Shown: positions 7,798-55,330 of the stretch, in pieces
How positions within the stretch are numbered: the first letter of the stretch is position 1
Layout: each line of letters opens with the position of its first letter
Source of the DNA: Ktedonobacter robiniae
GTDB taxonomy: Bacteria > Chloroflexota > Ktedonobacteria > Ktedonobacterales > Ktedonobacteraceae
DNA: 64,000 nucleotides
NCBI RefSeq assembly: GCF_016587375.1
Contig: NZ_BNJG01000001.1
Location: forward strand, 1,984,001-2,048,000
Direction: 5' to 3'
Translations under genes and position numbers: made by a program
The notes under the pieces: model-generated
Database searches by the model: none
What the model was told of the DNA's origin: nothing
The model's input: only the letters and a program-made list of their open reading frames with translations

Positions 7798-10449
7798 TTA
7801 TTTAACGCGGAAGCCGCGCAGACGCAGGGAGTTTGTCACTACTGTGACGGAGGAGAGCGCCATTGCGCCGGCGGCAAAGATGGGGGCCTGGGTCTGTAGG
7901 AAGGGGATCAGCGGCGAGAGAATGGCCGTAGGAATCAAGAGCACATTGTAGGCGAAGGCCCAGAAGAGGTTCTGCTTGATCGTACGCATTGTGGCCCGCG
8001 AAAGCTCCAGCGCGCTCACCACGCTTTGCAGATTGCCCTTCACGAGAGTAATATCCGCCGCCTCCATAGCGATATCGGTTCCGGTTCCCATGGCAATGCC
8101 GGCATCGGCCTGCACCAGGGCGGGCGCGTCATTAATGCCATCACCCACAAAGACCACGACCATGCCCAGGTCTTGCAGGCTCTTGACCTGCCTGGCCTTC
8201 TCTTCGGGCAGAACATCGGCCAGTACATGCTCGGCATCGATGCCCACCTGCTCGGCAATGGCCCGGGCTGTGCGTTCGTTGTCGCCGGTAATCATCCAGA
8301 CCGCCAGACCGCGCTGCTTCAGTTCGGCGATGGCAGCGGCCGAACTCTCCTTGACCGTATCCGCGACGGCGACCAGGCCCGCCAGCCTGCCATCCACACT
8401 AATCAGCATTGCTGTCTTGCCCACCTGCTCCAGGGCTTCAAGTTGTGACAGTAGCGCGTCAAGGGCAATCCCGCGCTCCTGGAGGAGACGCCGATTCCCA
8501 ATCAGCAACTCATGCCCCTCAACCAGGGCCTCGACGCCCCGTCCTGGAAGCGCGACGAAGCGCGTGGGATAGCCCTCCGGGGCCAGGGCAAGGCCCCGCG
8601 CCTTCGCCCCCTCGACGATGGCCGCCGCCAGTTGATGCTCTGACCCCTGCTCGGACTGCGCGACCAGCCGCAGCAGCGTCTCCTCGTCCAGGGTCTCATC
8701 CAGAACTAATACATCCGTCAATTCAGGCTTGCCTTGCGTAACAGTACCGGTCTTGTCGAGCATGACGGCCTCGATGGCCTGAATGCGCTCCAGGCTCTCA
8801 CCGCCGCGGATGAGAATGCCCTGCTCGGCACCCTTGCCTGTTCCAACCATAATCGCCGTCGGGGTCGCCAGACCCAGCGCACAGGGGCAAGCCACCACGA
8901 TGACCGTGATCGCCGTTACCAGGGCGTTGACGGTGGGGTCCATATGCATGAGCATGTTCATCGGGTGACCGCCCATATACATCGGCATCATCATGGGGGG
9001 CAGAGAGAAGAGGTTGCCATAGATCAACCAGCCAATGAAGGTGAGCAAGCCAACTACGAGCACTGCTGGAACAAAGATACCCGAGACAGTATCGGCCAGG
9101 CGCTGGATCGGGGCTTTTGAGCCCTGGGCCTGCTCTACCATACGTACGATCTGGGCCAGCATAGTATCGGCGCCCACCCTGGTCGCCCGGACCTGCAACA
9201 GCCCCTGCTGGTTAAGGGTTGCGCCAATGACCGTGTCGCCCTCAGCTTTCTCGACAGGCAGGCTCTCGCCGGTCAGCATCGACTCATCGACAGAGGATTG
9301 GCCCCCCAAAACCTCGCCATCCACGGGGAGCTTCTCACCAGGGCGCACGCGCAGGATATCGCCCACGCGGACCCGCGCCACGGGAATATCCATCTCCTGG
9401 CCCTTGCGCACAACGTGGGCCACGTGAGCCTGTAAGCCAATCAGCTTCTTCAGAGCATCATTCGTGCGTAAACGCGCGCGTGCCTCCAGGTATTTACCCA
9501 GGTAGATCAGGGTAATGATCAGCGCGGTCGTATCGTAAAAGGTCATAGTTCCCAGCGAGGGATTAAAGGTGATTGCGATACTGAGAGCAAAGGCCGCCGT
9601 CGAGCCAAAGGAGATCAGGGTATCCATCGTGGCACTCAGATGGCGTAGATTCTTCAGCGCGTTGCGGTGGAACTCCCAACCAACCATGCCCCAGACCGGC
9701 GCGGTAAACGCCAGCAGCATGGTATTCATATTGCCCATGCCGGGCATGCCAGCACCCATAAAGAACATATTGAAGAAGACCACAAGCGCGCTCAGGATGG
9801 CACCTACAATCAGCAGGCTGCGTTTACGCTCAAGCTCGGCGCGGTGGCGCGCTCTCTGCTCCTCCTGGCGCTGGGCAATGAGCTGCAGGGGATCGAGGGC
9901 CTCGCCCTCCTCCTCTTCCTCGTCTGCAGGACGAACCACCACATCGGCGCGAGGAATGGCCTTATAGCCCAGGGCATCTACCTTCTGCACCATCTGCTCC
10001 GGCTGCGCCTGCGTGGGATCATAGACCACTGTTGCCTGCTCAGATGCCAGATTCACATTGGCCGTATGCACCCCTGGCAACTTCTTCAAGCCCTTCTCTA
10101 TACGCATCGCGCAAGAGGCACAGGTCATTCCCTCCACCGCGAAGAGGATCTGTGCCTCCTGCGGTTCGGCCGTCACAGCGGCCACAGGTGGAATAGCCTT
10201 ATAGCCCAGGGCATCTACTTTCTGTGCTATCTGCGCAAAATCGACCTGCTGGGGATTGAAGGTCACGCTTGTCATCTCAGAGGCCAGGTTGACGCTGGCC
10301 TCATTCACACCCGGCAGCTTCTTCAAGCCCTTCTCTATACGCATCGCGCAGGCGGCGCAGGTCATCCCCTCCACCGCGAAGGAGAGCTGCTCGGATGTAT
10401 ATGTCGTCTGAGAAGAACTCTCAAGCGGCATATGCATTTTCATATTCAT
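7798..10449 (-). CDS. copA: Copper-exporting P1B-type ATPase with two heavy-metal domains
   Basis: 883 residues. Two N-terminal heavy-metal-associated domains carry GMTCAAC (near residue 29) and GMTCASC (near 109). The ATPase core shows the intramembrane CPC motif in [13 protein letters not shown] (near 518), the phosphorylation motif DKTGT (near 566), MITGDN (near 720) and GDGINDAP (near 770). It exports Cu(I) from the cytosol. The very N-terminus (MNMKMHMP) and the loop before the CPC helix, with [20 protein letters not shown], are unusually rich in Met and His, likely extra copper sites. It is divergent from csoR-copZ, which deliver repression and chaperoned copper. Confidence 0.96.
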
Positions 10450-10503
10450 AAGAACGAACCTCGTTCTAACAAACGAATCAGATCACACCAAATTTATACT
10501 ATC

Positions 10504-39465: not shown

Positions 39466-40948
39466 CTATCTGAGCTTTCTGGAGTTTGCCGCTGTAGTCG
39501 GTATAGACCACCTTCCACTCGGTGAAGACATCCAGTCCGGCGATGCCCGCCTCGCGGTGACCGTTGCCAGTGCCGCGCGTGCCGCCGAAGGGAAGTTGGA
39601 TCTCGGCTCCCGTTGTGCCGGAATTGATATAGAGGATACCCGTGGTCAGATCGCGCATGGCTCGCTGGGCGTTGTTGATATTCTGGGTATAGATCGCGCT
39701 GGAGAGACCAAAGGGCGTCTGGTTGTTGACTGCGATGGCCTCGTCGAAGGTATCGACCGCGATCACGGAGAGCACCGGGCCAAAGATCTCCTCCTGGGCG
39801 ATGCGCATCTCCGGGCGCACATCTTTAAAGAGCGTCGGGCGATAGAAACTCCCGGAAGTCAGTCCTTCGACTTCAGCACACGCTCCACCCGTTACCAGCG
39901 TCGCTCCCTCGCCCTGGCCAATCTCGACATAGGCATGAATCTTCTCAAGCTGGCTGGCATTGATCACCGGCCCGACATCGACCTGCTCATCCAGGCCATC
40001 ACCCAGGCGCAGTTGCTCAATACGCGGCAGCAACTTCTCTAGCAAGTGGTCATGCACGCCACGCTGTACGATCAGGCGGCTACAGGCGGTACAGCGCTGG
40101 CCCGTGGTGCCATAGGCACTCCAGAGAATGCCCTCCACCGCCAGTTCCAGGTCGGCATCATCGAGAACAATAACGGCGTTTTTGCCACCCATCTCCAGCG
40201 AGACGCGTTTCAGCGATTGCGCCGCCTCGACCGCTACATGACGTCCCGATTCAGTTGAACCGGTAAAGGAAATGACCGCCACGTCGGGATGGTGAATCAG
40301 GGCCTCGCCTACCTCCTGACCAGAGCCACACACGAGATTGACTACGCCCTCAGGCAGACCAGCTTCCTGAAGGATCTCGACCAGGCGCAAGGCACTCTGT
40401 GGTGTATCCGAGGCGGGTTTAAGCACAATAGTATTGCCGGCAACCAGCGCCGGAAACATCTTCCAGGTCGGGATGGCAATGGGAAAGTTCCAGGGTGTGA
40501 TGCAGGCCACAACCCCCACAGGATCGCGCAGAGCCATACCACTCTTATTGGGTAGCTCCACAGGCACGGTATAGCCAAAGAGGCGGCGGCCCTCACCGGC
40601 CATGTAGTAGGCCATATCTATGCCCTCTTGCACATCGCCGCGTGTCTCTTTGAGTACCTTGCCCATCTCGCGCGTCATAATACGCGCCAATTCCTCTTTA
40701 TGGCGCGAAAGCAGCTCACCGACACGAAAGAGAATCTCGCCGCGCTTGGGCGCGGGGACGAGACGCCAGTGCTCAAAGGCCTGGCGAGCCGAGGCGACAG
40801 CCGCATCTACGTCGGCCGTGGACGAGAGCGGGAAATGGCCCAGGGTTTCGCCCGTGGCGGGATTATAGTTGGCAAAGGTTCTTCCCTCACGCGCGGCCTG
40901 CCACTTGCCACCAATGAAGTTTTGAAATGTCTGCACAGTAGTCGTCAT
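39458..40948 (-). CDS. NAD(P)-dependent aldehyde dehydrogenase
   Basis: 496 residues, full length. FTGSTESGRHVAVEA binds the cofactor, SLEMGGKNAVIV carries the catalytic Glu, and GQRCTACSR the catalytic Cys. The C-terminal GAEIQLPFGGTRGTGNGHRE segment resembles the semialdehyde (ALDH7-like) group, but the substrate cannot be fixed. The start ATG 40948 is immediately downstream of the tnpB insertion sequence end; its ribosome-binding site (AAAGGCAGG) lies in that end. Confidence 0.95.
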   Translation of the reverse strand: MTTTVQTFQNFIGGKWQAAREGRTFANYNPATGETLGHFPLSSTADVDAAVASARQAFEHWRLVPAPKRGEILFRVGELLSRHKEELARIMTREMGKVLKETRGDVQEGIDMAYYMAGEGRRLFGYTVPVELPNKSGMALRDPVGVVACITPWNFPIAIPTWKMFPALVAGNTIVLKPASDTPQSALRLVEILQEAGLPEGVVNLVCGSGQEVGEALIHHPDVAVISFTGSTESGRHVAVEAAQSLKRVSLEMGGKNAVIVLDDADLELAVEGILWSAYGTTGQRCTACSRLIVQRGVHDHLLEKLLPRIEQLRLGDGLDEQVDVGPVINASQLEKIHAYVEIGQGEGATLVTGGACAEVEGLTSGSFYRPTLFKDVRPEMRIAQEEIFGPVLSVIAVDTFDEAIAVNNQTPFGLSSAIYTQNINNAQRAMRDLTTGILYINSGTTGAEIQLPFGGTRGTGNGHREAGIAGLDVFTEWKVVYTDYSGKLQKAQIDS

Positions 40949-40963
40949 GCAATACCTGCCTTT

Positions 40964-42169
40964 CTAAATGTGTTCAACATCTTCGATTGCGGTGAAAACG
41001 TCCGCACACCGCACGGAATCGTCCGTGTGTGGCCCAAGCCGGGCAAGAAACCTCATCAAGATGTTGACGGCACTGTTGTCGTCTCGATCTATGACGAGTC
41101 CGCATTCACTACAGCAATAGGTCCGTTTCCACAGTGGCATGTCTTGTTTGTGCCCACAGCCACTACAGGTTTTCGACGTATCGCGTTCATCTAGGATAAT
41201 GAGTTCTTTCCCAGAGAGGAAGCACTTGTAGAGCAGCATCTGAACAAAGCTATAGAGTCCCCAATCGTTGTAGACCGCTCGATTCAAATACCTGTTTCTC
41301 TCTCGATGCTCTTTCATGACCATCTGCCTTTGGGAAAGATCACCGATCACCACGGTTCTCTCAACCAGTGTGTGTGCGATGAGATGACTTGCTTTATGCA
41401 GACAGTCTTGTTGTTTGTTGCGCTTCCGCTGTGAGACGCGCTTGTAGACCTTACTCAAGTGCTTGTATCGACGTGAACCCTTCTTACAGCGATCTCGCTT
41501 CGAGCGGATCTTGTCTAGTTGACGATTATACCACCGATTGCCCTTGAACCCTCCAATGTGATAGAAGCGGCCTTGGTCGTTCACGCCGGTTGCCAATGTC
41601 TTCACACCTAAGTCAAGAGCAAGCACGCCATTATATTCATGCGTTTCTTCTTTTTTATCGTGGACAAAGGATGCATAGTAGTGTCCCTGTCCATCTCTGG
41701 AGATCGCGACGTCTCTGTAGCCGGTTGGGGCTTCTTCCGTCAGTTTGGCCACCACATCGGGGTATCGCTTGCTCTTGCCTCTGCCCCCTGTCGGAAGTCT
41801 GAGAGACAATCCTTCCACCTGGATGTACATGGACGGGTAGATGAGCGTGAAAAAGCAATGCCGTGGCCGCACCCTCGGAAATCCGGGTTTTCCTCCGTTC
41901 TTGATCCGCCGAAAGAAGGCTTGCATCGCGCCATCCAAGCGGAAATAGACTTCCTGTAAGAGCTTGCCATAGACAAAACACAGTTCCGGGTCGTGCAGCT
42001 TGCTCTGTTGCAGCGTCTCCTTCGCTTCTTTCCATCCCGGCCACCTCTCTCCATCCCGCAAGCGCATCACCCACCAATTGTACAACCCCCGACATTTCCC
42101 CTGCATGAATTCCAGGGTGGCGGCGTCTTGTGGGCTGACCTCAAGCCTGATCTTCTTACTGATCAGCAT
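40964..42169 (-). mobile_element. tnpB: IS200/IS605-family TnpB (RNA-guided nuclease-like)
   Basis: 401 residues from ATG 42169 (GGAGGAGAGG upstream). The N-terminal helical OrfB domain (RGLYNWWVMRLRDGERWPGW) precedes the RuvC core: LALDLGVKTLATG (Asp), VVIGDLSQRQM at the second site, a four-Cys zinc finger (TCSGCGH...CCSECG), and RDDNSAVNILMR (Asp). The second RuvC motif has Gly where Glu is usual; an alternative Glu occurs in DERDTSKTCSGC. No tnpA is present, so the element is a single-gene type. Its 3' end lies 16 bp from the aldehyde dehydrogenase start, and a guide RNA from this end would read into that gene. Confidence 0.88.
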
Positions 42170-42185
42170 CTCCTCTCCTCCGGTC

Positions 42186-43559
42186 TCAATAGGAAATGAA
42201 CACAAAACGGATATGCTGGACATCTGGCAGGGTCGTATTGGTGGAGAAGGACACCGACAGCACCCCTGGGTGTGCTAATAAAAGGCTCTTTGCCTCAGCC
42301 TGGCTTTTGCCTGCAATACTAGCCTTTAAGTGCTCCTGCTCTGCTTGGGAGAACTGATACACCCACATATCTGTCCCTGTCGCCTGGATGGTCATTTTCC
42401 CTTGTGCTGTAGTGGCAATGTGTACCTCCCCACTCGGCATGTACCTGGCTCCTAGCTGCTGCCTTGCCTGAGTGGTGAGTGCCTGGGTGATGAGTGTTTG
42501 AAGGGCTTGTGTCTGATAGACAATGCCTGTACATGTCTCGTCGAGGGTCACATGCACACTTGTCGCTTCGTACCCCGGCTTGCGGTCGGCACTCGTCTTC
42601 TGCTGGCAATGTAGCGGGGTGACAAGCGTTTCTGCGCTTTGAACTTGGGTTTGTAGTGCTGCGGTGGTACTCTGGTCAAGGCTGGCTTTCAGGCTCATGC
42701 CTGCGGTGTCGATGTCGTGTTGGGTCACAGTCTGGTAGTCGCGTGCGTCTTGCCCTCCGCTAAAAGCTCCGTTTACGGCGGAGATATTGACGCGACAGCA
42801 GGGGCCATAGATCGCGTCTGCCTTGATGTTGCCTGCTGATCCTGCCTGGGTCGTGTGGGCGCTGACACTCGCCTGTCCAAAGGTGGGATAGCTTGCCGCG
42901 CCTATATTCGCGTCTTGATCGGTTGTCACCTGGGTTCCGTTGGTTGCGGTCACGAGGGTTCCTGCGGGTATCGTCTGCCCATAGGTCGCGCTATTGTAAA
43001 ACGTGATGTACCCGTGTGCGCTCTGGGCGTCCTGGTGCGCTTTTCCCGTTGTGGCAACGGTATGTGCCTGGCTCATGGTGACGGTGGGTAATAATCTTCC
43101 TGGCACCTGGCTGTGGGTCGGGTCGGCGTTTCCGATTGTCACCGTCAGGCGGGTTTCTATTGTGCGTGAGATTGGAATAAACGTCACGATCATCGTCGCT
43201 GTCCAGAGAGGAAACAGGTACAGCAGGCAACCAACAAGAAGCGCACAGGCACATACGAGAAGGCTGATAGAGACAAGGGGGCGCGTGTGCTCACTTGTCC
43301 ACGCTAGAGGCTTCCTCCCTCGTGGCTCTGGCTCCTGGTCAATGGGTGGGACACTTTCAACGGTGTTGGCTAACTCCTCTAGCTCTGCTTCCTCCTTGGG
43401 ATAAATGTGGATCTCGATGTCATACAGACGGCGCTGGTGGTCGTACTCCTGGTTGGCTTCTATGGGTGGTATGTCGTCCGTCGTGCGCGTCTGTTGCTGC
43501 TCTTGGTCAAGCTCTCGTAGAAGCTGCTCTAGATCGTTCTGCATCTGTTTGTCTTGCAT
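42186..43559 (-). CDS. Membrane-anchored baseplate-J-like protein
   Basis: 457 residues. An acidic N-terminal region (about 100 residues, EAELEELANTVESVP) leads to one membrane helix (LVSISLLVCACALLVGCLLY). The outside part has the baseplate J/gp47 signature: GYITFYNSATYGQTIPAGTL, then VTATNGTQVTTDQDANI and AGSAGNIKADAIYG. The end HPGVLSVSFSTNTTLPDV fits the family's C-terminus, so it is near complete. ATG 43559 has GGAGGG 7 nt upstream. It closes a gene cluster running from 45750 and directly precedes the tnpB element, whose insertion point is within about 20 bp of its stop. Confidence 0.7.
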   Translation of the reverse strand: MQDKQMQNDLEQLLRELDQEQQQTRTTDDIPPIEANQEYDHQRRLYDIEIHIYPKEEAELEELANTVESVPPIDQEPEPRGRKPLAWTSEHTRPLVSISLLVCACALLVGCLLYLFPLWTATMIVTFIPISRTIETRLTVTIGNADPTHSQVPGRLLPTVTMSQAHTVATTGKAHQDAQSAHGYITFYNSATYGQTIPAGTLVTATNGTQVTTDQDANIGAASYPTFGQASVSAHTTQAGSAGNIKADAIYGPCCRVNISAVNGAFSGGQDARDYQTVTQHDIDTAGMSLKASLDQSTTAALQTQVQSAETLVTPLHCQQKTSADRKPGYEATSVHVTLDETCTGIVYQTQALQTLITQALTTQARQQLGARYMPSGEVHIATTAQGKMTIQATGTDMWVYQFSQAEQEHLKASIAGKSQAEAKSLLLAHPGVLSVSFSTNTTLPDVQHIRFVFISY

Positions 43560-43618
43560 GAGGTTCCCTCCAACAGGAAGGGGAAGAGCACAGGTTAATG
43601 AGACTCTTCCCTGAGACA

Positions 43619-44047
43619 TTAGGCGTTTGGGATACCATCCCACGGTGCTCTACAGGTGTCGAGGGGTCCGGCGCTAAAGGCCGTGTAGAAGAGAACCTCT
43701 TTGTTGAGCTGGTCAAGCTGGTCAAAGAAGCTTTCTGGAACGGTTCCACGCCAACGGATGACAATGTAGCCATCGCCTGATGTGTTGACTTTGCCATAGG
43801 AGACTAATACCGCTTGTACAGGGCGCTCTGCCTGAAACGAGGTTTGCAAGTTCAGGGCAAGGGTCGCCGTCATGGTTTCCTTGCAGGAGAGGACCACATA
43901 TTCATCCTCTCCACGAAAGGTGATGCCCTGAAGCTCGTGGACGCGTTGGGTCAACATGCGCATGGTTCGGCGTAGTCCCCTGGGGTCGCTCTCCTGGGGG
44001 TGCTGTGGCTGTGTAGTCTGCATGGGATATGCTGGTGTGGCAATCAC
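43619..44047 (-). CDS. Unrecognised protein of the accessory cluster
   Basis: 142 residues starting at GTG 44047, which overlaps the stop of the preceding gene by 4 nt (GTGA), so translation is coupled. Features seen are a helical segment (LRRTMRMLTQRVHELQ) and beta-rich parts (DEYVVLSCKETMTATLALNL, GDGYIVIRWRGTVPESFFDQ). There is no signal peptide or membrane helix. No family was recognised. Its place between the FG-GAP-like and baseplate-J-like membrane proteins suggests a common complex. Confidence 0.65.
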   Translation of the reverse strand: MIATPAYPMQTTQPQHPQESDPRGLRRTMRMLTQRVHELQGITFRGEDEYVVLSCKETMTATLALNLQTSFQAERPVQAVLVSYGKVNTSGDGYIVIRWRGTVPESFFDQLDQLNKEVLFYTAFSAGPLDTCRAPWDGIPNA

Positions 44048-44772
44048 GGTTTGACCTCTTTCATGGGGATTGGGCTAAACACATCGTTCTGGTTCTTAAA
44101 GGCGATGCTTTGTTCTCCAACAGAGACAATCATGTCCGTCTTGCCGTCTCCATCCAGGTCTTTGAATATCACCTGCGCAGGCGTCAAGTCTTGCCCACTT
44201 CCTAACAACGCGATGCCTGTCTTGTACACATGTGCTTTGCTTTGGTCGCCTGCTGGCATTTCTATGACGGTAATCTGACTATGCAGATTGAGCACAATGA
44301 AGTGGGATGGAGTCACGCTTGTATCGTGGTTGTGGCCGACAACGGCGTCGATCTGGTACGTGCGAGGACGTCCATAATGCAGGTCGTCTTGCCATGTCTG
44401 CCATGCCTGTTGTCCTATGCCAATGCCAAGCCATCCCCCAACCATCAACACGCCTGCCAGTCCTACATACGCAGGCCAACGGGGAACATGAAACGGCCTG
44501 GAAGTGCCAACCGGCAAGAGGGGTATCTGCCTCTGCTGCCTTGGTTGGTCGTGGACATACACATTGACCCTGCGCATTGCCTGCGCGTCTGACCTTGCTG
44601 GCTGGTAGGTGTTTTGGCGTACGACACTGGTATGAGTGCGCGCCTCATGCAAGGCGTCTTCATCGATCTGCTCTTCTGTGTCTCTTTCCTCTCTCGGTAC
44701 TCTGGTAACGCGCTTTGTGCGTGTAGACGGCTGCTCGGTTTCCAGGGTTGGGCGATAGCGAGAAGGGCGCAT
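44044..44772 (-). CDS. Single-span membrane protein with FG-GAP/VCBS-like C-terminus
   Basis: 242 residues. The basic and acidic N-terminal 125 residues are followed by one membrane helix (YVGLAGVLMVGGWLGIGIG). The outside domain contains SHFIVLNLHSQITVIEMPAG and a calcium-loop-like FKDLDGDGKTDMIVSVGE, as in FG-GAP/VCBS propeller repeats, though only one clear copy is seen. ATG 44772 overlaps the previous stop as TAATG, and GAGGAGGG lies upstream, so it is coupled to the gene before. Confidence 0.7.
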   Translation of the reverse strand: MRPSRYRPTLETEQPSTRTKRVTRVPREERDTEEQIDEDALHEARTHTSVVRQNTYQPARSDAQAMRRVNVYVHDQPRQQRQIPLLPVGTSRPFHVPRWPAYVGLAGVLMVGGWLGIGIGQQAWQTWQDDLHYGRPRTYQIDAVVGHNHDTSVTPSHFIVLNLHSQITVIEMPAGDQSKAHVYKTGIALLGSGQDLTPAQVIFKDLDGDGKTDMIVSVGEQSIAFKNQNDVFSPIPMKEVKP

Positions 44773-45194
44773 TAGCGTTCCCTCCTCTCGTCGTACACTG
44801 GCTTTGGAGGGCTGCCCTGTTCCTGTAGCTTGCGCATCGCGTATTGATAGAACTCCTCGTTCCAGCCGCACACATAGCCATAACGCCAAAGTGCCGGGCG
44901 TAAGGTGTCGTACATCGCCCATTGCAGGGCGTTCTCTACGTCCTGGGCAACAATCTCGCGCTTGGCAAAAGACAGGGCGAGGAACTCGCTCCGTCCCGAT
45001 TTCACGCCATTGTGAAAGGCTGGATCAGCACAGATCAGGATGGTATCAATGCCTGTAGGTTTCGTCTCATCTGTCAGCCTGAGAGTATCTTCTGGGTGAA
45101 TACCAAATGAGGCGCCGACGCGCTGGCATGATACATCTTGCTGCTGTGCTTCGCCATAGAGGTGGAAGGTGGTTTCCGTTCTGTTATGCTTCAT
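44772..45194 (-). CDS. Unrecognised protein of the accessory cluster
   Basis: 140 residues without signal peptide or membrane segment. Segments such as TGIDTILICADPAFHNGVKS and RPALWRYGYVCGWNEEFYQY are distinct but match no family I know. The stop codon overlaps the next start (TAATG), placing it in the same transcript as the FG-GAP-like and baseplate-J-like genes. ATG 45194 follows AGAGGAG. Confidence 0.65.
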   Translation of the reverse strand: MKHNRTETTFHLYGEAQQQDVSCQRVGASFGIHPEDTLRLTDETKPTGIDTILICADPAFHNGVKSGRSEFLALSFAKREIVAQDVENALQWAMYDTLRPALWRYGYVCGWNEEFYQYAMRKLQEQGSPPKPVYDERRER

Positions 45195-45255
45195 GCGTTT
45201 TCTCCTCTGCCACCCTCTTGTTGCCTGTAAGCAACAAGAGGGTGGTCATTCCCAG

Positions 45256-45750
45256 CTAGAGATGCTTCCCTGCTACATAGTCAATTGCTTCTTGTGGGGT
45301 AAGAAGACCGTCGCTCACGTAGCGAACAACCTCAGAAATGTTGCTCTGGTCCTCATGACACGGACATGATGGAGCATAACAAAATGGGTTGGTTATGCTG
45401 TGAAGCTGGTTGTCATTGGGGATCACAGGAAGAAAATTATCCCCGTAAGGAGCAGGTTCCTCACAACGCCTGCCAGGTGAAGTCGAGGGTGGCTGTTGAG
45501 GAGAAGAAACTTCAAGCAAACCTTTCACCCAACCGATGACCCAGCCTGTATTCTCACAGGTCGAATCAGGAAAAGCGAGGAGACGATGGACAAGGTGTTC
45601 GTACAGGTCATGTTCGCTCAGCGGGATTTGTTCATTCTGATAGGCTTGGTATCCCGCCTGCACACCGCGAAAGAAAGCAACGTTGGAAACGGTGACCGGC
45701 CCATCAACCAAATGGAAGGAATGTAACACCATAGAGGCTTGTTGAGACAT
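45256..45750 (-). CDS. Unrecognised protein, first gene of the accessory cluster
   Basis: 164 residues from ATG 45750. The N-terminal half is probably globular (VSNVAFFRGVQAGYQAY, HDLYEHLVHRLLAFPDS). After a proline-rich linker comes CYAPSCPCH, a possible metal site, then a helical end VVRYVSDGLLTPQEAIDYVA. No family was recognised. Two upstream Met codons exist (45759, 45801); 45750 is chosen for its spacing from AAGAGATG, but the start is uncertain. Confidence 0.6.
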   Translation of the reverse strand: MSQQASMVLHSFHLVDGPVTVSNVAFFRGVQAGYQAYQNEQIPLSEHDLYEHLVHRLLAFPDSTCENTGWVIGWVKGLLEVSSPQQPPSTSPGRRCEEPAPYGDNFLPVIPNDNQLHSITNPFCYAPSCPCHEDQSNISEVVRYVSDGLLTPQEAIDYVAGKHL

Positions 45751-45844
45751 ACGTATCATCTCTTTCTTGACCGAGGAGCCTCTATGCGCTATGCTGAGCA
45801 TAGAGAACTCCGGGACGACGCAACGTTTTGTGTGTTCTCACTCA

Positions 45845-45877
45845 CTGGCTCTCGTCGGCAAACGAGAGCCAGTTTTT
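45845..45877 (+). terminator. Intrinsic terminator without a known upstream gene
   Basis: Stem CTGGCTCTCGT/ACGAGAGCCAG with a 6-nt loop followed by TTTTT. It is oriented for a plus-strand transcript, but only the minus-strand cluster lies upstream of it, so it could end an unannotated small RNA or antisense transcript. Confidence 0.6.
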
Positions 45878-45994
45878 CTTGTCTGCTATCACCTCCTCTA
45901 AAAGGGCTTACCTAGGTAGAAAACTTCTAAGAAATTTCATGATCACATAAGCATAATAACCGAAAAAAATCAAAAAATCAAGGAAAATATTGTT

Positions 45995-46081
45995 AAAAAC
46001 CGGTTTTTGTGGTATTCTGATAAAGAACAGTGATGTGTTGCCCCTCCTGTTGACAGAAACCGCCATTTGTCGCAAAATACG
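45995..46081 (+). promoter_or_regulatory. Promoter and palindrome upstream of the small HTH gene
   Basis: The 14-bp palindrome AAAAACCGGTTTTT (45995-46008) and a TTGACA box near 46053 with a CAAAAT-like -10 precede the HTH gene. The palindrome is a plausible operator for autoregulation. Confidence 0.5.
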
Positions 46082-46104
46082 GTTAATATTTGTCAGGAGG
46101 CCAT

Positions 46105-46314
46105 ATGGAGACCTTAGACCAACTGCGTAAGCGTGCGGGCTTGCAAGTCAAGGAACTAACGGAATTAGCTGATGTTTCAGAAACTTCCTATCGCAAGATG
46201 GTGAGGGGTGAAGCTGTAGGCGAAGTGCTTGTTTATCGTGTATTGCGCGTTTTATCTGAACGCCTTAAGCGCGAACTAACGCCTGATAATGTGAGTGGGC
46301 TAAACCTTTTGTAG
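46105..46314 (+). CDS. Small helix-turn-helix (XRE-type) protein
   Basis: 69 residues, essentially one HTH domain: LDQLRKRAGLQVKELTELAD followed by VSETSYRKMVRGEAVGEVL. ATG 46105 has AGGAGG 4-5 nt upstream. It is divergent from the accessory cluster at 42.2-45.8 kb and probably regulates it or itself. Its small size and position resemble regulators of integrated elements. Confidence 0.8.
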   Translation: METLDQLRKRAGLQVKELTELADVSETSYRKMVRGEAVGEVLVYRVLRVLSERLKRELTPDNVSGLNLL

Positions 46315-46348
46315 GTTTCGCTTGTATTTGAAGCTAAATAATACTAGC

Positions 46349-46382
46349 TACATGCACCACCTTTGAAAAAGTGGTGCATGTA
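46349..46382 (+). terminator. Hairpin after the HTH gene
   Basis: Perfect 12-bp stem TACATGCACCAC/GTGGTGCATGTA around a 10-nt loop, 35 nt after the stop codon. No T-run follows. Confidence 0.6.
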
Positions 46383-46601
46383 CAATCAGAAGTAAAAAGC
46401 ATAATCTACGTTAAAACGTCTAAGATGGAGTGGCAAGCAATACCAAATATACGCACTTATTGGCCCTAGAGATAACACAATACGATATGTTAGTATAAGC
46501 GATGATACTCAATACAGATTTGTCACTCTTCACAAACAGTGGTCATTTTTTCGTCACAGTCAATGGCACTCTTTTTCCCTAGAGAAGGTTGGCCTAGGTA
46601 A

Positions 46602-46638
46602 TAAAATGGCCCAGCGTCGCGCAGGCTGGGCCATTTTA
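46602..46638. terminator. Bidirectional terminator between HTH and NUDIX genes
   Basis: Perfect 14-bp stem TAAAATGGCCCAGC/GCTGGGCCATTTTA with a 9-nt loop. The A-rich left and T-rich right ends give a T-run in both directions. It is 50 bp from the NUDIX stop codon. Confidence 0.8.
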
Positions 46639-46687
46639 AGCAAACGCCCCTCGGTTGAGGGGGACGCAGATGCAAAGTGAATTATTT

Positions 46688-47175
46688 TTATGAGCCGTGA
46701 GTATCAAAATATGCCCGGGAGTCACCACGCCAGACACGAAACGCTTCCGGGATACGTGTCGCATGACCCGGATCAAGATCATCAGGCAAAATATCCTCGG
46801 CGAACCAGCCCATTTCTTTTATCTCGTTAGCATACGTGGGAGGATCAATGCGCTCAACGCCAGGTTTGAGACGACAGAGAAAGAGGAAGTGGTAGAGTTG
46901 AGCATTTGATACTGTGCCACAGAGACGAGAGTCATGTACTCCGACCAGGACAACAGGCTCGCAGGCCAGTCTCCTCCAGCGCCTCGCGAACCGCGCCCTG
47001 AGCCGGAGTTTCTCCCACATCTAAGCCACCATCCGGCATCGCCCAGCGCAAAAATCTTTCCCTGCGCGATCTTGCACGTATCGGTGCGCAAGCGAAACCA
47101 GCGATCCTCATAACTGATACTGCTCGCAATGATGTGCAGGGCGCTACATCCTTTGGTATACTGCTTTTCCTCTCC
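46688..47175 (-). pseudogene. NUDIX hydrolase with two frameshifts
   Basis: Three frames together make one NUDIX protein: [19 protein letters not shown] then [14 protein letters not shown] in the first; [20 protein letters not shown] and [14 protein letters not shown], the full NUDIX box, in the second; and [17 protein letters not shown] to AFRVWRGDSRAYFDTHGS in the third. The breaks lie near a T5 run (about 47055) and near 46965. Each part is well conserved, so decay is recent or the assembly has errors. The original start is unclear. It would have hydrolysed a nucleoside diphosphate derivative. Confidence 0.75.
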
Positions 47176-47314
47176 ATTTTGTACTTTACTCCTCCACTTG
47201 TTGGGAAAAGAAAGCACCGTGTCCTCTCAGAAGGCACTTTGTAGAGCTTTTATTGTAGCATAGTTGCTTGTGAGGTTTCGATGTATTTTCGCTTGCATGT
47301 GTTTAATAACTGGA

Positions 47315-50300
47315 TCAATTCAATGGTTCAGATTCTAACTGTGAAATTAATATTTTTTGTCCAGAGGCATTTATGGTATAAAAGCCTATTGGCTCTTCTC
47401 TCCAGAACTCCTGATATTCGCCCTCGTATTTCTTCTGATCCTGAAAAAATGATACTACGCTTCTAATAGAGATATATTCTTTGCCATATGTGCGAATAAG
47501 ATTCGCGATCTCTTTTGCTTGTAGCGGCCCAAGGCCAACACGGAATGCGATTTCTAATGCCCAAAGGATCCGAATAACATATGAAATTTTCTTTGTTTTT
47601 AGGCCTTTGGGCAGTGATCCCAAAGATTGAACTGCATCTAGGATAACCTGCTCGTAGTCAATAGTCTCATCTTCAAATAAAGGCATCTGAAAGGGAGATT
47701 CTTTTGAAGTGTTCTGTATTGTCCAGCTTTTATCGTAAGTCTGCAGGTCCGAGTAGTTAGAATAAAATTCATCCAATAGCTCCTCGGAGTTTTCTAGTGA
47801 TTTACGTTTATTTGCTTGAATAAAACTTAAGTTGCTAAAATTTTCTCCAAATACTTTTCGTTCAACAAGGCTATTTATAACTTGTGCCCAGTCCTTATTA
47901 GTTTGGCGAATATTATTGGCTTGAACTTCTTCTAGCCATGACCATTTTAGGTAATCTATGAAGGTTTCTCTCGCATCGGTAGCTTGTAAAGTATCATCAT
48001 ACCCACTTGTTTGTGCATCAAAAGTATCTCTCAGGCATTCAATATAACGTTTTGCAAATTCTTCATTGTACCAAATCATATCTTCTCCAACTCGCGTTTG
48101 ATAGTAGCGGTTAGAAACTAGCTTTTGCAAGTAGTAATATCCTTTTGCTGAAAGTGCAATTTTTGTATCAGCAGGCAGAGGATCTGGAATTTCACTTCTC
48201 ATCTCTGTAATAGAGGTTGCAGGTAAGCTTGGCGAGATAAGTAGGCCAGCATATAACAACTTGAGTGTAGCGTTATTTACGTGATGACTTTGATAGCCAA
48301 GAAAAACAAGATCACTTTTTATCTTTTCGTACTTTACCGAGTATCTTGAGGATGTATAGTTAACCTTCAAGCTAAGATACGCTAGTATTCTTAGCATTAA
48401 AAAATGGCTAACCTTTTCAAAACGATCAACGGAAAAAATATTAAAAACATCCGACTTTTTCTCCTCAAACCACCAACCATCAGTTAGCATAAGGGCTTGG
48501 AGGAAACGATTGTTCTCAAGTTCATAATTAAACTTAAAATCTAAATTTAATGGTGTAACCTCTTTACACTTATCATAAAATTCATGAAAAGTAGCATGAG
48601 ACGAAGTATAATAGTTGGCTAGCATAGCAAGCCCGTATCGGATGTTATTTAGACTGAAAGCTGTAATAAACAGCCTTATAAAGTCATCTTCTTGAAGAAG
48701 AAGATGTTTTATATGCAAGTTTAAGAGATTTATGAGTTGAAAATAAGGCTTAAATAACTTAGGAAGCTCACCGCTATTTGTGATCCTATCTATGTACTTT
48801 CTTCGTTTGGAGATAATCTGTCGGAATTCAGGAGATTTCAATTGAAAGACAATATCTGTACTTCGAACATCTAAAAAACCCGCCTCTTGGGCTTCTAGGA
48901 AAGTATCTTGACGAAGGGTAATTAAAGTAACACACTTTGCATCATTACATAACTGATGAGCAAAAGAGTAAATAAATTGCTGATAAGAATCCGAACCTCT
49001 GTCTACATTGTCAAATGCAACCCAAACTTTATACCGTTTTTTTCGAGCAAATCTAATATAACCAACCAAGTGATCATATTTATCATTACTTAGGCCATAT
49101 AAGTAATCTTCTTCCTCTAAACTATATTTGTCTGGATCCTTTTGAAATAAAATCTGCTTTTGTTTTTTGAAACGACCTAGTCTATCTGCAAAGCATCCTC
49201 TTAATACGGCTGGAGCATAAGGATCCAATTTGTCTTGAAATTGTTGTGCTAAACTCGTCAAGACTTTATCCGCCAGTCGTTGCTCCTCTTCACGTCCCTG
49301 TGAAATATTGGCTATTGCATCATTAATAAGGTTCACTATTGTACAAATATGTTGTTTGGGTCTATCAAACTTAACAAAACGATGGACAAAGGTACTTTTA
49401 CCAGCGCCAACATTCCCGACAAGAAGGATTGTCTTGGGGTTACCAGAATCAGATTGTATTTCTAATTCGTTTTCTAAAGTTGTCTGGTCAACTTCCTCCA
49501 TAGAGAGATCAGACTCTTCAATTACAGCATCATATTGTAAAATTTGTTGCAACTCACGTGAAAATTCATTTAACTCATAGCTATCAACATAGCACTGCTG
49601 CAACATTTTGCTTTGACCTGGTTGAGTTATATCTGCCATGAAATTATTAAAAAATGCTCTAATAATTTGTTTTTGCTGTATTTGCTTAGTTTCAGGTATA
49701 GAGTCTATAAAATCTCGTGGATGTATTGCAACCGTTGGCTCTATAAGCATCATTTTTCCAAAATGTTCTTCAAGGCTGTTATTTTTAATAGCCTCACGAG
49801 AAAGCAATCCATAGAACTCTCCAAATTTATTACGGATGTCCTTTAAAGAGTGAAACACAAGGGATTTGAGTTTTCCCCATTCTTCACCAAGCTTAAAGCA
49901 AGGCATTACAATCCAAATCTCTCCAGTAGTTGCCAAGGCATATGGTATTCCGCAATGAATACAGTAATTTATACACTGATCTAAGAGCATTTTCATTTCT
50001 GGTCCATAGTTGTTAAAGAGAAAGGAGTTAGCATATTGGCGACTTTGAATATTTTTAGGAAGAGGATTAACTGCTCCTACACGTTTCGCTTCAACTATCA
50101 AGCGTGGCTGGCCATCTATAGTTAAGCGGTAATCAGTGTAACTTTTAATAGTTGTTACTTGCTCCGGTTCATATTCATCTTTAGACCAACCTAAAATGCT
50201 TAAAACTTCATCTATAATCAGTAGTCTTGTCTTTGCTTCATTGGCACCCTGTAACTTACGAATGACTTCGCTTTCAACTAAAAGGTTCATCTTTGCCGCA

Positions 50301-50320
50301 GCATCCTCTACTATAGACAT
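47315..50320 (-). CDS. Nuclease-NTPase fusion, candidate defence protein
   Basis: 1001 residues. The N-terminal region resembles type I/Mrr-like restriction nuclease domains: a PD-(D/E)XK arrangement with Asp63 (YTDYRL) and Glu77-x-Lys79 (RLIVEAKR). Near residue 303 a P-loop reads LLVGNVGAGKSTFVHRF, and near 430 a Walker B-like strand reads KVWVAFDNVDRG, suggesting a STAND/AAA-type NTPase. A long helical region follows; the end (LQAKEIANLIRTYGKEYI, then FYTINASGQKIL) resembles a winged helix. Base composition is far more AT-rich than its neighbours, indicating transfer. It is a single gene beside accessory DNA, a position usual for antiphage genes. The role is inferred. Confidence 0.7.
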   Translation of the reverse strand: MSIVEDAAAKMNLLVESEVIRKLQGANEAKTRLLIIDEVLSILGWSKDEYEPEQVTTIKSYTDYRLTIDGQPRLIVEAKRVGAVNPLPKNIQSRQYANSFLFNNYGPEMKMLLDQCINYCIHCGIPYALATTGEIWIVMPCFKLGEEWGKLKSLVFHSLKDIRNKFGEFYGLLSREAIKNNSLEEHFGKMMLIEPTVAIHPRDFIDSIPETKQIQQKQIIRAFFNNFMADITQPGQSKMLQQCYVDSYELNEFSRELQQILQYDAVIEESDLSMEEVDQTTLENELEIQSDSGNPKTILLVGNVGAGKSTFVHRFVKFDRPKQHICTIVNLINDAIANISQGREEEQRLADKVLTSLAQQFQDKLDPYAPAVLRGCFADRLGRFKKQKQILFQKDPDKYSLEEEDYLYGLSNDKYDHLVGYIRFARKKRYKVWVAFDNVDRGSDSYQQFIYSFAHQLCNDAKCVTLITLRQDTFLEAQEAGFLDVRSTDIVFQLKSPEFRQIISKRRKYIDRITNSGELPKLFKPYFQLINLLNLHIKHLLLQEDDFIRLFITAFSLNNIRYGLAMLANYYTSSHATFHEFYDKCKEVTPLNLDFKFNYELENNRFLQALMLTDGWWFEEKKSDVFNIFSVDRFEKVSHFLMLRILAYLSLKVNYTSSRYSVKYEKIKSDLVFLGYQSHHVNNATLKLLYAGLLISPSLPATSITEMRSEIPDPLPADTKIALSAKGYYYLQKLVSNRYYQTRVGEDMIWYNEEFAKRYIECLRDTFDAQTSGYDDTLQATDARETFIDYLKWSWLEEVQANNIRQTNKDWAQVINSLVERKVFGENFSNLSFIQANKRKSLENSEELLDEFYSNYSDLQTYDKSWTIQNTSKESPFQMPLFEDETIDYEQVILDAVQSLGSLPKGLKTKKISYVIRILWALEIAFRVGLGPLQAKEIANLIRTYGKEYISIRSVVSFFQDQKKYEGEYQEFWREEPIGFYTINASGQKILISQLESEPLN

Positions 50321-50764
50321 TGCATTACCTTTCTATCCAAACCTTTATTCTTCATAAATCAAGAATACTATTATCTAGCTTATCGTTTAAGGCGCCTTAA
50401 ATTAATGTTAGATGTGATAGTTAATATAATATTACACGCCTATACAGTCAAGGTGCATCTAAAAGGTTAAATGATAATTACGTTTGAAAGTAAAAAGAAG
50501 CTGTCAGTAAGTACCAGATCAGAACCCATGTAAGTAGGTTTCAAATCAAGGAAGATACGAAGGGAGCAAAAAATACAGCGCTCCACCATCTGGACCGCTC
50601 AAAGCGATGAGACGAGAGAAGACCAGTTCTGCTAGCTGGTATCCTACTCGTTGTGGTTCTACTAGCATTTAGTATGCTATGCCAAACCACCAATCAAGCG
50701 CAAGAGCAAGGTGAAGCGCTGTATACATCAGGGAATATGCGATTGTGAAGCAGTCAAACGACTG
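50321..50764. other. Intergenic region with a possible membrane peptide remnant
   Basis: The first 150 bp are AT-rich and hold the likely promoter of the nuclease-NTPase gene. From about 50620 a frame without a start reads PVLLAGILLVVVLLAFSMLC and continues QTTNQAQEQGEALYTSGN to a stop at 50746-50748. An ATG at 50606 opens MRREKT in another frame. Together they look like a small membrane protein broken by one frameshift, but evidence is weak. Confidence 0.35.
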
Positions 50765-55261: not shown

Positions 55262-55330
55262 TATCTTTCTTGCGGATCTTTTCACCGCAATCATCAATGT
55301 GAACGAGTTTGAACACATTTAGAAAGGCAG
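55262..55330 (+). mobile_element. Remnant of a tnpB 3' end / IS right end
   Basis: The frame LADLFTAIINVNEFEHI-stop (55270-55321) matches the C-terminus of the TnpB at 40964 (CADVFTAIEDVEHI-stop). The following AACACATTTAGAAAGGCAG is identical to that element's right end. The rest of the gene is gone. As at the aldehyde dehydrogenase, the end lies just before a start codon, here 10 nt from ATG 55340. Confidence 0.75.

Follow-up and report, generated by a model that had tools for sequence, protein, structure and literature searches.

The window, by which we mean the whole 64,000-nucleotide stretch of Ktedonobacter robiniae DNA that was analysed, contains a solitary gene that we predict to be a horizontally acquired, single-gene anti-phage (or anti-plasmid) defence protein, with a probability of about 0.68. 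The role in phage defence is considered probable because relatives of the protein occur in many phyla, on prophages and plasmids, and beside antiviral genes. The active-site residues of a predicted nuclease and of an ATPase are both intact in one polypeptide, and the gene and its parts are arranged as follows.

47315–50320, minus strand: nuclease-NTPase gene, 1001 aa; intact open reading frame with an ATG start
49751–50320, minus strand: predicted PD-(D/E)XK nuclease domain, residues 1–190, with E53, D63, E77, K79, Q115 and Y119; from conservation, the model, PDB folds and HSDR_N in homologues
48551–49480, minus strand: AAA+ NTPase and lid, residues ~281–590, with Walker A at G302–K308, Walker B at D437-N438-x-D440, a sensor-1-like R470 and a sensor-2-like R561; from profiles, conservation, the model and fold matches
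48086–48523, minus strand: winged-helix region of the family core, residues ~600–745; from the model and alignment, by a secondary-structure reading
47318–47830, minus strand: C-terminal helical/HTH-like tail, lineage-specific, residues 831–1001; from the alignment, with low model confidence
50423–50451, minus strand: promoter-like TTGACT and TATATT spaced by 17 bases, ~100 bases upstream of the start; a consensus match only

The reading frame, including its strand, start codon and length, is exactly as the initial annotation stated, and the chance of 1001 stop-free codons at the gene's own base composition is ~1e-33. The foreign composition that had been claimed for the gene was also recovered: its GC content is 36.1% against 54% for the window, and its GC3 is 0.30 against 0.66–0.68 in the adjoining rho and aldehyde dehydrogenase genes. 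There is no evident partner gene, and promoter-like sites near the gene are no more frequent than in shuffled sequence.

On both its residues and its fold, the N-terminal domain is a predicted HsdR/RecB-type PD-(D/E)XK nuclease. Among 72 aligned proteins, most of them 17–25% identical to the window protein, every one of the 71 homologues that cover the site has E28, D63, E77 and K79. D63, E77 and K79 had been placed at these positions in the initial annotation, and their absence from homologues, set beforehand as a refutation, did not occur. Y119 is found in 72 of the 72 proteins, while position 115 is Gln in 66 and Glu in the remaining six, which belong to one clade that includes the S1-tailed members. 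This mostly viral-contig clade (L014, L018, L020, L022, L032 and L093), in which the Gln of the QxxxY motif is replaced by Glu and E53 by Lys, is, as judged from the alignment, a predicted distinct nuclease subtype. When modelled alone, the nuclease domain reached a pLDDT of 93 and showed the PD-(D/E)XK order of secondary-structure elements. Its best PDB fold matches were BpuSI, DrdV and the HsdR fragment 3h1t, with modest E-values of 6e-3 to 9e-3 and probabilities of 0.96–0.98, and Cas4 ranked lower. The HSDR_N profiles match homologues but not the window protein itself.

The Walker residues, including K308 and D437, are conserved in 72/72 homologues, and the GNVGAGKST motif lies at residues 302–310 as previously given. 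R470, which follows the sensor-1 strand, is present in 63/72, and R561 is invariant (72/72) within a GN(I)R motif, which we take to resemble sensor 2 of ORC and RFC. Pfam searches with the window protein gave AAA_16, NPHP3_N and TniB near the cut-offs, together with an nSTAND_NTPase5 match that scored below its own cut-off. The full-length model (mean pLDDT 79) matched the folds of ORC/Cdc6, TnsC, CED-4, Apaf-1 and NOD2. The STAND motif hhGRExE, expected before Walker A, is absent from the window protein and from the seven homologues inspected. From the fold matches, the invariant R561 and the absent hhGRExE, we therefore class the NTPase as an ORC/STAND-type AAA+ domain. The resemblance to STAND-type proteins drawn in the initial annotation thus holds for Walker A and B, the Arg after sensor-1 and the CED-4, Apaf-1 and NOD2 folds, but not for the missing hhGRExE and the invariant sensor-2-like Arg.

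The overall layout of nuclease, NTPase and helical/winged-helix parts was borne out by conservation, profiles and models, with one adjustment at the C-terminus. A winged-helix-like end had been proposed there and is weakly supported, as the last 100 residues have pLDDT values of 30–60, whereas a more confident winged helix lies earlier in the model, at residues ~640–735. The last 170 residues are modelled as low-confidence helices with an HTH-like pattern and are common only to the window protein, L034 and L035 (Myxococcota). L035 is the sister of the window protein in the tree with a support of 81, a placement that is uncertain because of the long branches. A weak match to PtuA at residues 744–804, being short and not within the ATPase, was judged to be due to chance.

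Homologues were found on 28 plasmids, 24 viral contigs and in at least 80 species genomes. The tree spans 11 named phyla and contains more phylum changes than one origin per phylum needs. For the contigs of the species genomes, the protein query alone gave no match while the alignment query gave 80 loci. The family core is ~800–830 aa long, and the C-terminal additions to it include S1 in 7/56 and a cold-shock domain (CSD) in 5/56 homologues. Within Chloroflexota, 77 genomes were matched, mostly partially (nuclease only or P-loop only), and the relatives accepted besides the window protein are L115, which is full length, and perhaps L116, which has the N-terminal part and the P-loop. No other copy was found among 100 related genomes, the window gene being the sole match in 101. 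GenBank phages gave no match to three family members, and complete E. coli genomes gave no DNA match to two enterobacterial-type members. One viral-contig copy (L029), with 35% identity across the nuclease, falls into two reading frames, at 7971–8618 and 8666–10501 of its contig, and looks decayed or frameshifted.

The neighbourhoods of the homologues were compared with those of recA in the same 20 genomes, taking three genes on either side (115 proteins for the homologue and 119 for recA) and counting PADLOC models at an E-value of 1e-15 or better. The homologue neighbours matched 127 models and the recA neighbours 2; because many of the 127 models overlap on the same few proteins, the true defence neighbours are perhaps about ten of the 115 proteins. 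These neighbours include Hachiman HamA and HamB, an AriA-like ATPase, a Ppl-like protein, a type IV enzyme, PD-Lambda-1 and a type I specificity subunit, while some of the PADLOC matches are generic, as for a probable DNA polymerase A called RTasPolA. The viral-contig copies lie amid integrase, portal, replication (origin)-nickase and repressor genes, and some plasmid homologues adjoin integrases and RM genes. This analysis for defence islands, which the initial annotation had proposed as a check, supports the candidate defence gene indirectly, as does the carriage on prophages and plasmids.

In the window itself, the gene lies in a segment with the following features.

40958–50566: segment of 9.6 kb between the aldehyde dehydrogenase gene and rho, absent from the congeners G003 and G001
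40964–42223, minus strand: TnpB of the IS605/OrfB type, at the segment's left edge
46688–47237, minus strand: broken (split) NUDIX gene downstream of the nuclease-NTPase gene; its pieces have matches elsewhere in congeners

In both congeners the flanks are 92–98% identical to those of the window and the aldehyde dehydrogenase gene directly adjoins rho, with window positions 40957 and 50567 joined across ~6 bases. Since the flanks are contiguous in two congeners, the segment was either gained here or lost in them. A foreign origin of the window gene is supported by its composition, its absence from congeners and the visible empty site. No target duplication and no long inverted ends were found for the segment, and Rfam and tRNA scans of it gave no match. 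It is a patchwork of TnpB, DNA that is multicopy in the genus, the broken NUDIX gene and the nuclease gene, which agrees with the mobile or decayed neighbours noted earlier. No known defence gene lies beside the window copy, whose neighbours are transposon and repeat debris.

Several other observations were made along the segment. The ~6 bases at the join differ and include the probable ribosome-binding site of the aldehyde dehydrogenase gene: at 40940–40960, just upstream of its start, CCTCCT (minus strand) is changed to CCTGCC, and expression of this gene may be reduced for that reason. The left edge of the segment, at 40946–41000, shares ~60 bases with 55271–55330 on the opposite strand, where a small element ends and beside which the congeners also break (55263/55264), and the left edge of the segment and 55271–55330 look like the ends of one IS605-type element family. 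Beside TnpB, four reading frames at 42186–45194 have host-like GC and no Pfam match and are possible cargo or transfer genes of the TnpB element. The ~700 bases at 45200–45898, of which genomes of the genus each contain several diverged copies (71–83%), are probably a genus-specific mobile element and are overlapped by a reading frame at 45256–45801 that has no Pfam match.

For the way in which a defence protein of this kind would act, we propose a sensing-and-assembly mechanism, to which we give slightly less than an even chance. At rest, the nuclease would be kept apart or inactive by the AAA+ and winged-helix part. Some feature of the invader's nucleic acid would be recognised by the winged helix together with the lineage-specific tail (S1, cold-shock or HTH-like), whereupon ATP binding would lead to multi-subunit assembly, and the assembly would pair the nucleases to cut double-stranded DNA. 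The DNA cut might be that of the invader or, as in abortive infection, all of the DNA in the cell. A nucleic-acid trigger is our first guess, since those added domains that could be identified are RNA- or DNA-binding. More tentatively, the proteins may constitute an unnamed family of immune receptors that spans phyla, each receptor being a single protein in which an HsdR-type nuclease and the ORC-type AAA+ ATPase that switches it are joined to an exchangeable tail. This tail (S1, cold-shock or HTH-like) would bind nucleic acid and determine what is sensed. If so, the family would parallel the Avs receptors but sense nucleic acids in place of proteins.

Part of this evidence could be read in terms of type IV-like restriction, in which the protein itself would recognise a mark or structure on incoming DNA and cleave this DNA directly, the ATPase serving to load or clamp, with no assembly signalling or cell death. 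The nuclease is closest to those of type I/IIG restriction enzymes, related plasmid genes are annotated as 'type I/IV restriction endonuclease', and both the winged helix and the tails seem fitted for binding nucleic acids. However, the protein is without an SF2 motor or a McrB-type GTPase, its ATPase fold is of the switch or loader type, and no known modified-base reader domain was matched, so that we regard direct restriction as unlikely.

Carriage on plasmids and viral contigs would also suit a selfish or toxin-like gene whose role is to maintain its own mobile DNA and not to resist phage; it might, for instance, cut the plasmids of competitors, or host DNA upon loss. No antitoxin-like partner can be seen, though, and the gene stands alone on carriers of various kinds and also occurs on chromosomes beside unrelated defence genes, which makes such a role very improbable. 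We give even less credit to a part in Tn7-like transposition, that is, a TnsA-like PD-(D/E)XK nuclease joined in one chain with an AAA+ regulator like TnsC. The fold matches include TnsC, the Pfam matches include TniB and the gene lies within a mobile segment, but no transposon gene other than the IS605-type TnpB was matched there, the segment lacks duplicated targets and long inverted ends, and a tyrosine integrase is the only recombinase among the Pfam families most matched by the homologue neighbours. With no partner DDE transposase or target selector found in the segment, the TnsA/TnsC assignment was rejected.

The window protein had no significant PADLOC match, no PADLOC model matched the homologues repeatedly over the core, and profile searches did not assign the protein to a housekeeping family, an outcome that had been set as a refutation. 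No description of the family and no homologue with a tested function was found in the literature searched. Nor, as far as their text shows, is it described in papers that deal with an HsdR-N protein of Campylobacter, a Gifsy ATPase of Salmonella and restriction genes of Zymomonas. The proposal that the gene is undescribed is consistent with all of the libraries, including PADLOC 2.0, and the literature searched; it is provisional because DefenseFinder, preprints and most subscription papers were outside the scope of the search. The DefenseFinder profile FS_HsdR_like is a candidate match to the family. A nuclease effector on an NTPase switch is a known kind of protein, and the present combination is, provisionally, new as far as tested. 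If defensive, the genes would represent a broad family (11 phyla, viral contigs and plasmids) that is missing from PADLOC 2.0 and the literature searched, and would join a restriction-type nuclease and a replication-initiator-type switch in one gene. One gene per member makes testing easy, and the swapped tails provide a direct handle on the sensed feature.

Among known systems, CoCoNuTs likewise combine an NTP-driven switch, a PD-(D/E)xK nuclease and cold-shock/OB-fold nucleic-acid-binding domains in one defence module, but they use McrB GTPases, coiled coils and separate McrC nucleases, so that the likeness is in layout only (PMC11090510). The nuclease domain is like that of HsdR, with HSDR_N profiles in homologues, the 3h1t fold and the QxxxY motif, while an ORC/STAND-type AAA+ domain takes the place of the helicase motor. 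Assignment as a type I R subunit was rejected because the AAA+ domain is not an SF2 motor and HsdM and HsdS do not adjoin the gene, TnpB, the NUDIX remnant and rho being found instead. The AAA+ core, the lid with its sensor-2-like Arg and the winged helix are shared with ORC/Cdc6 and TnsC, the best PDB fold matches; unlike these, the window protein is fused to a nuclease, is ~11% identical and has a bacterial mobile-element setting. Membership in Avs/AVAST was also rejected, with no PADLOC Avs match and no C-terminal repeat profile in Pfam. The family differs from the Avs/AVAST and P4-hotspot STAND proteins in lacking hhGRExE, in its invariant sensor-2-like Arg and in its shorter C-terminal part. 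It nevertheless resembles them in being a single gene, carried by prophages and satellites, with an N-terminal nuclease (Mrr_cat or BpuSI_N in the P4-hotspot proteins), a central ATPase switch and a variable C-terminal part (PMC9122126).
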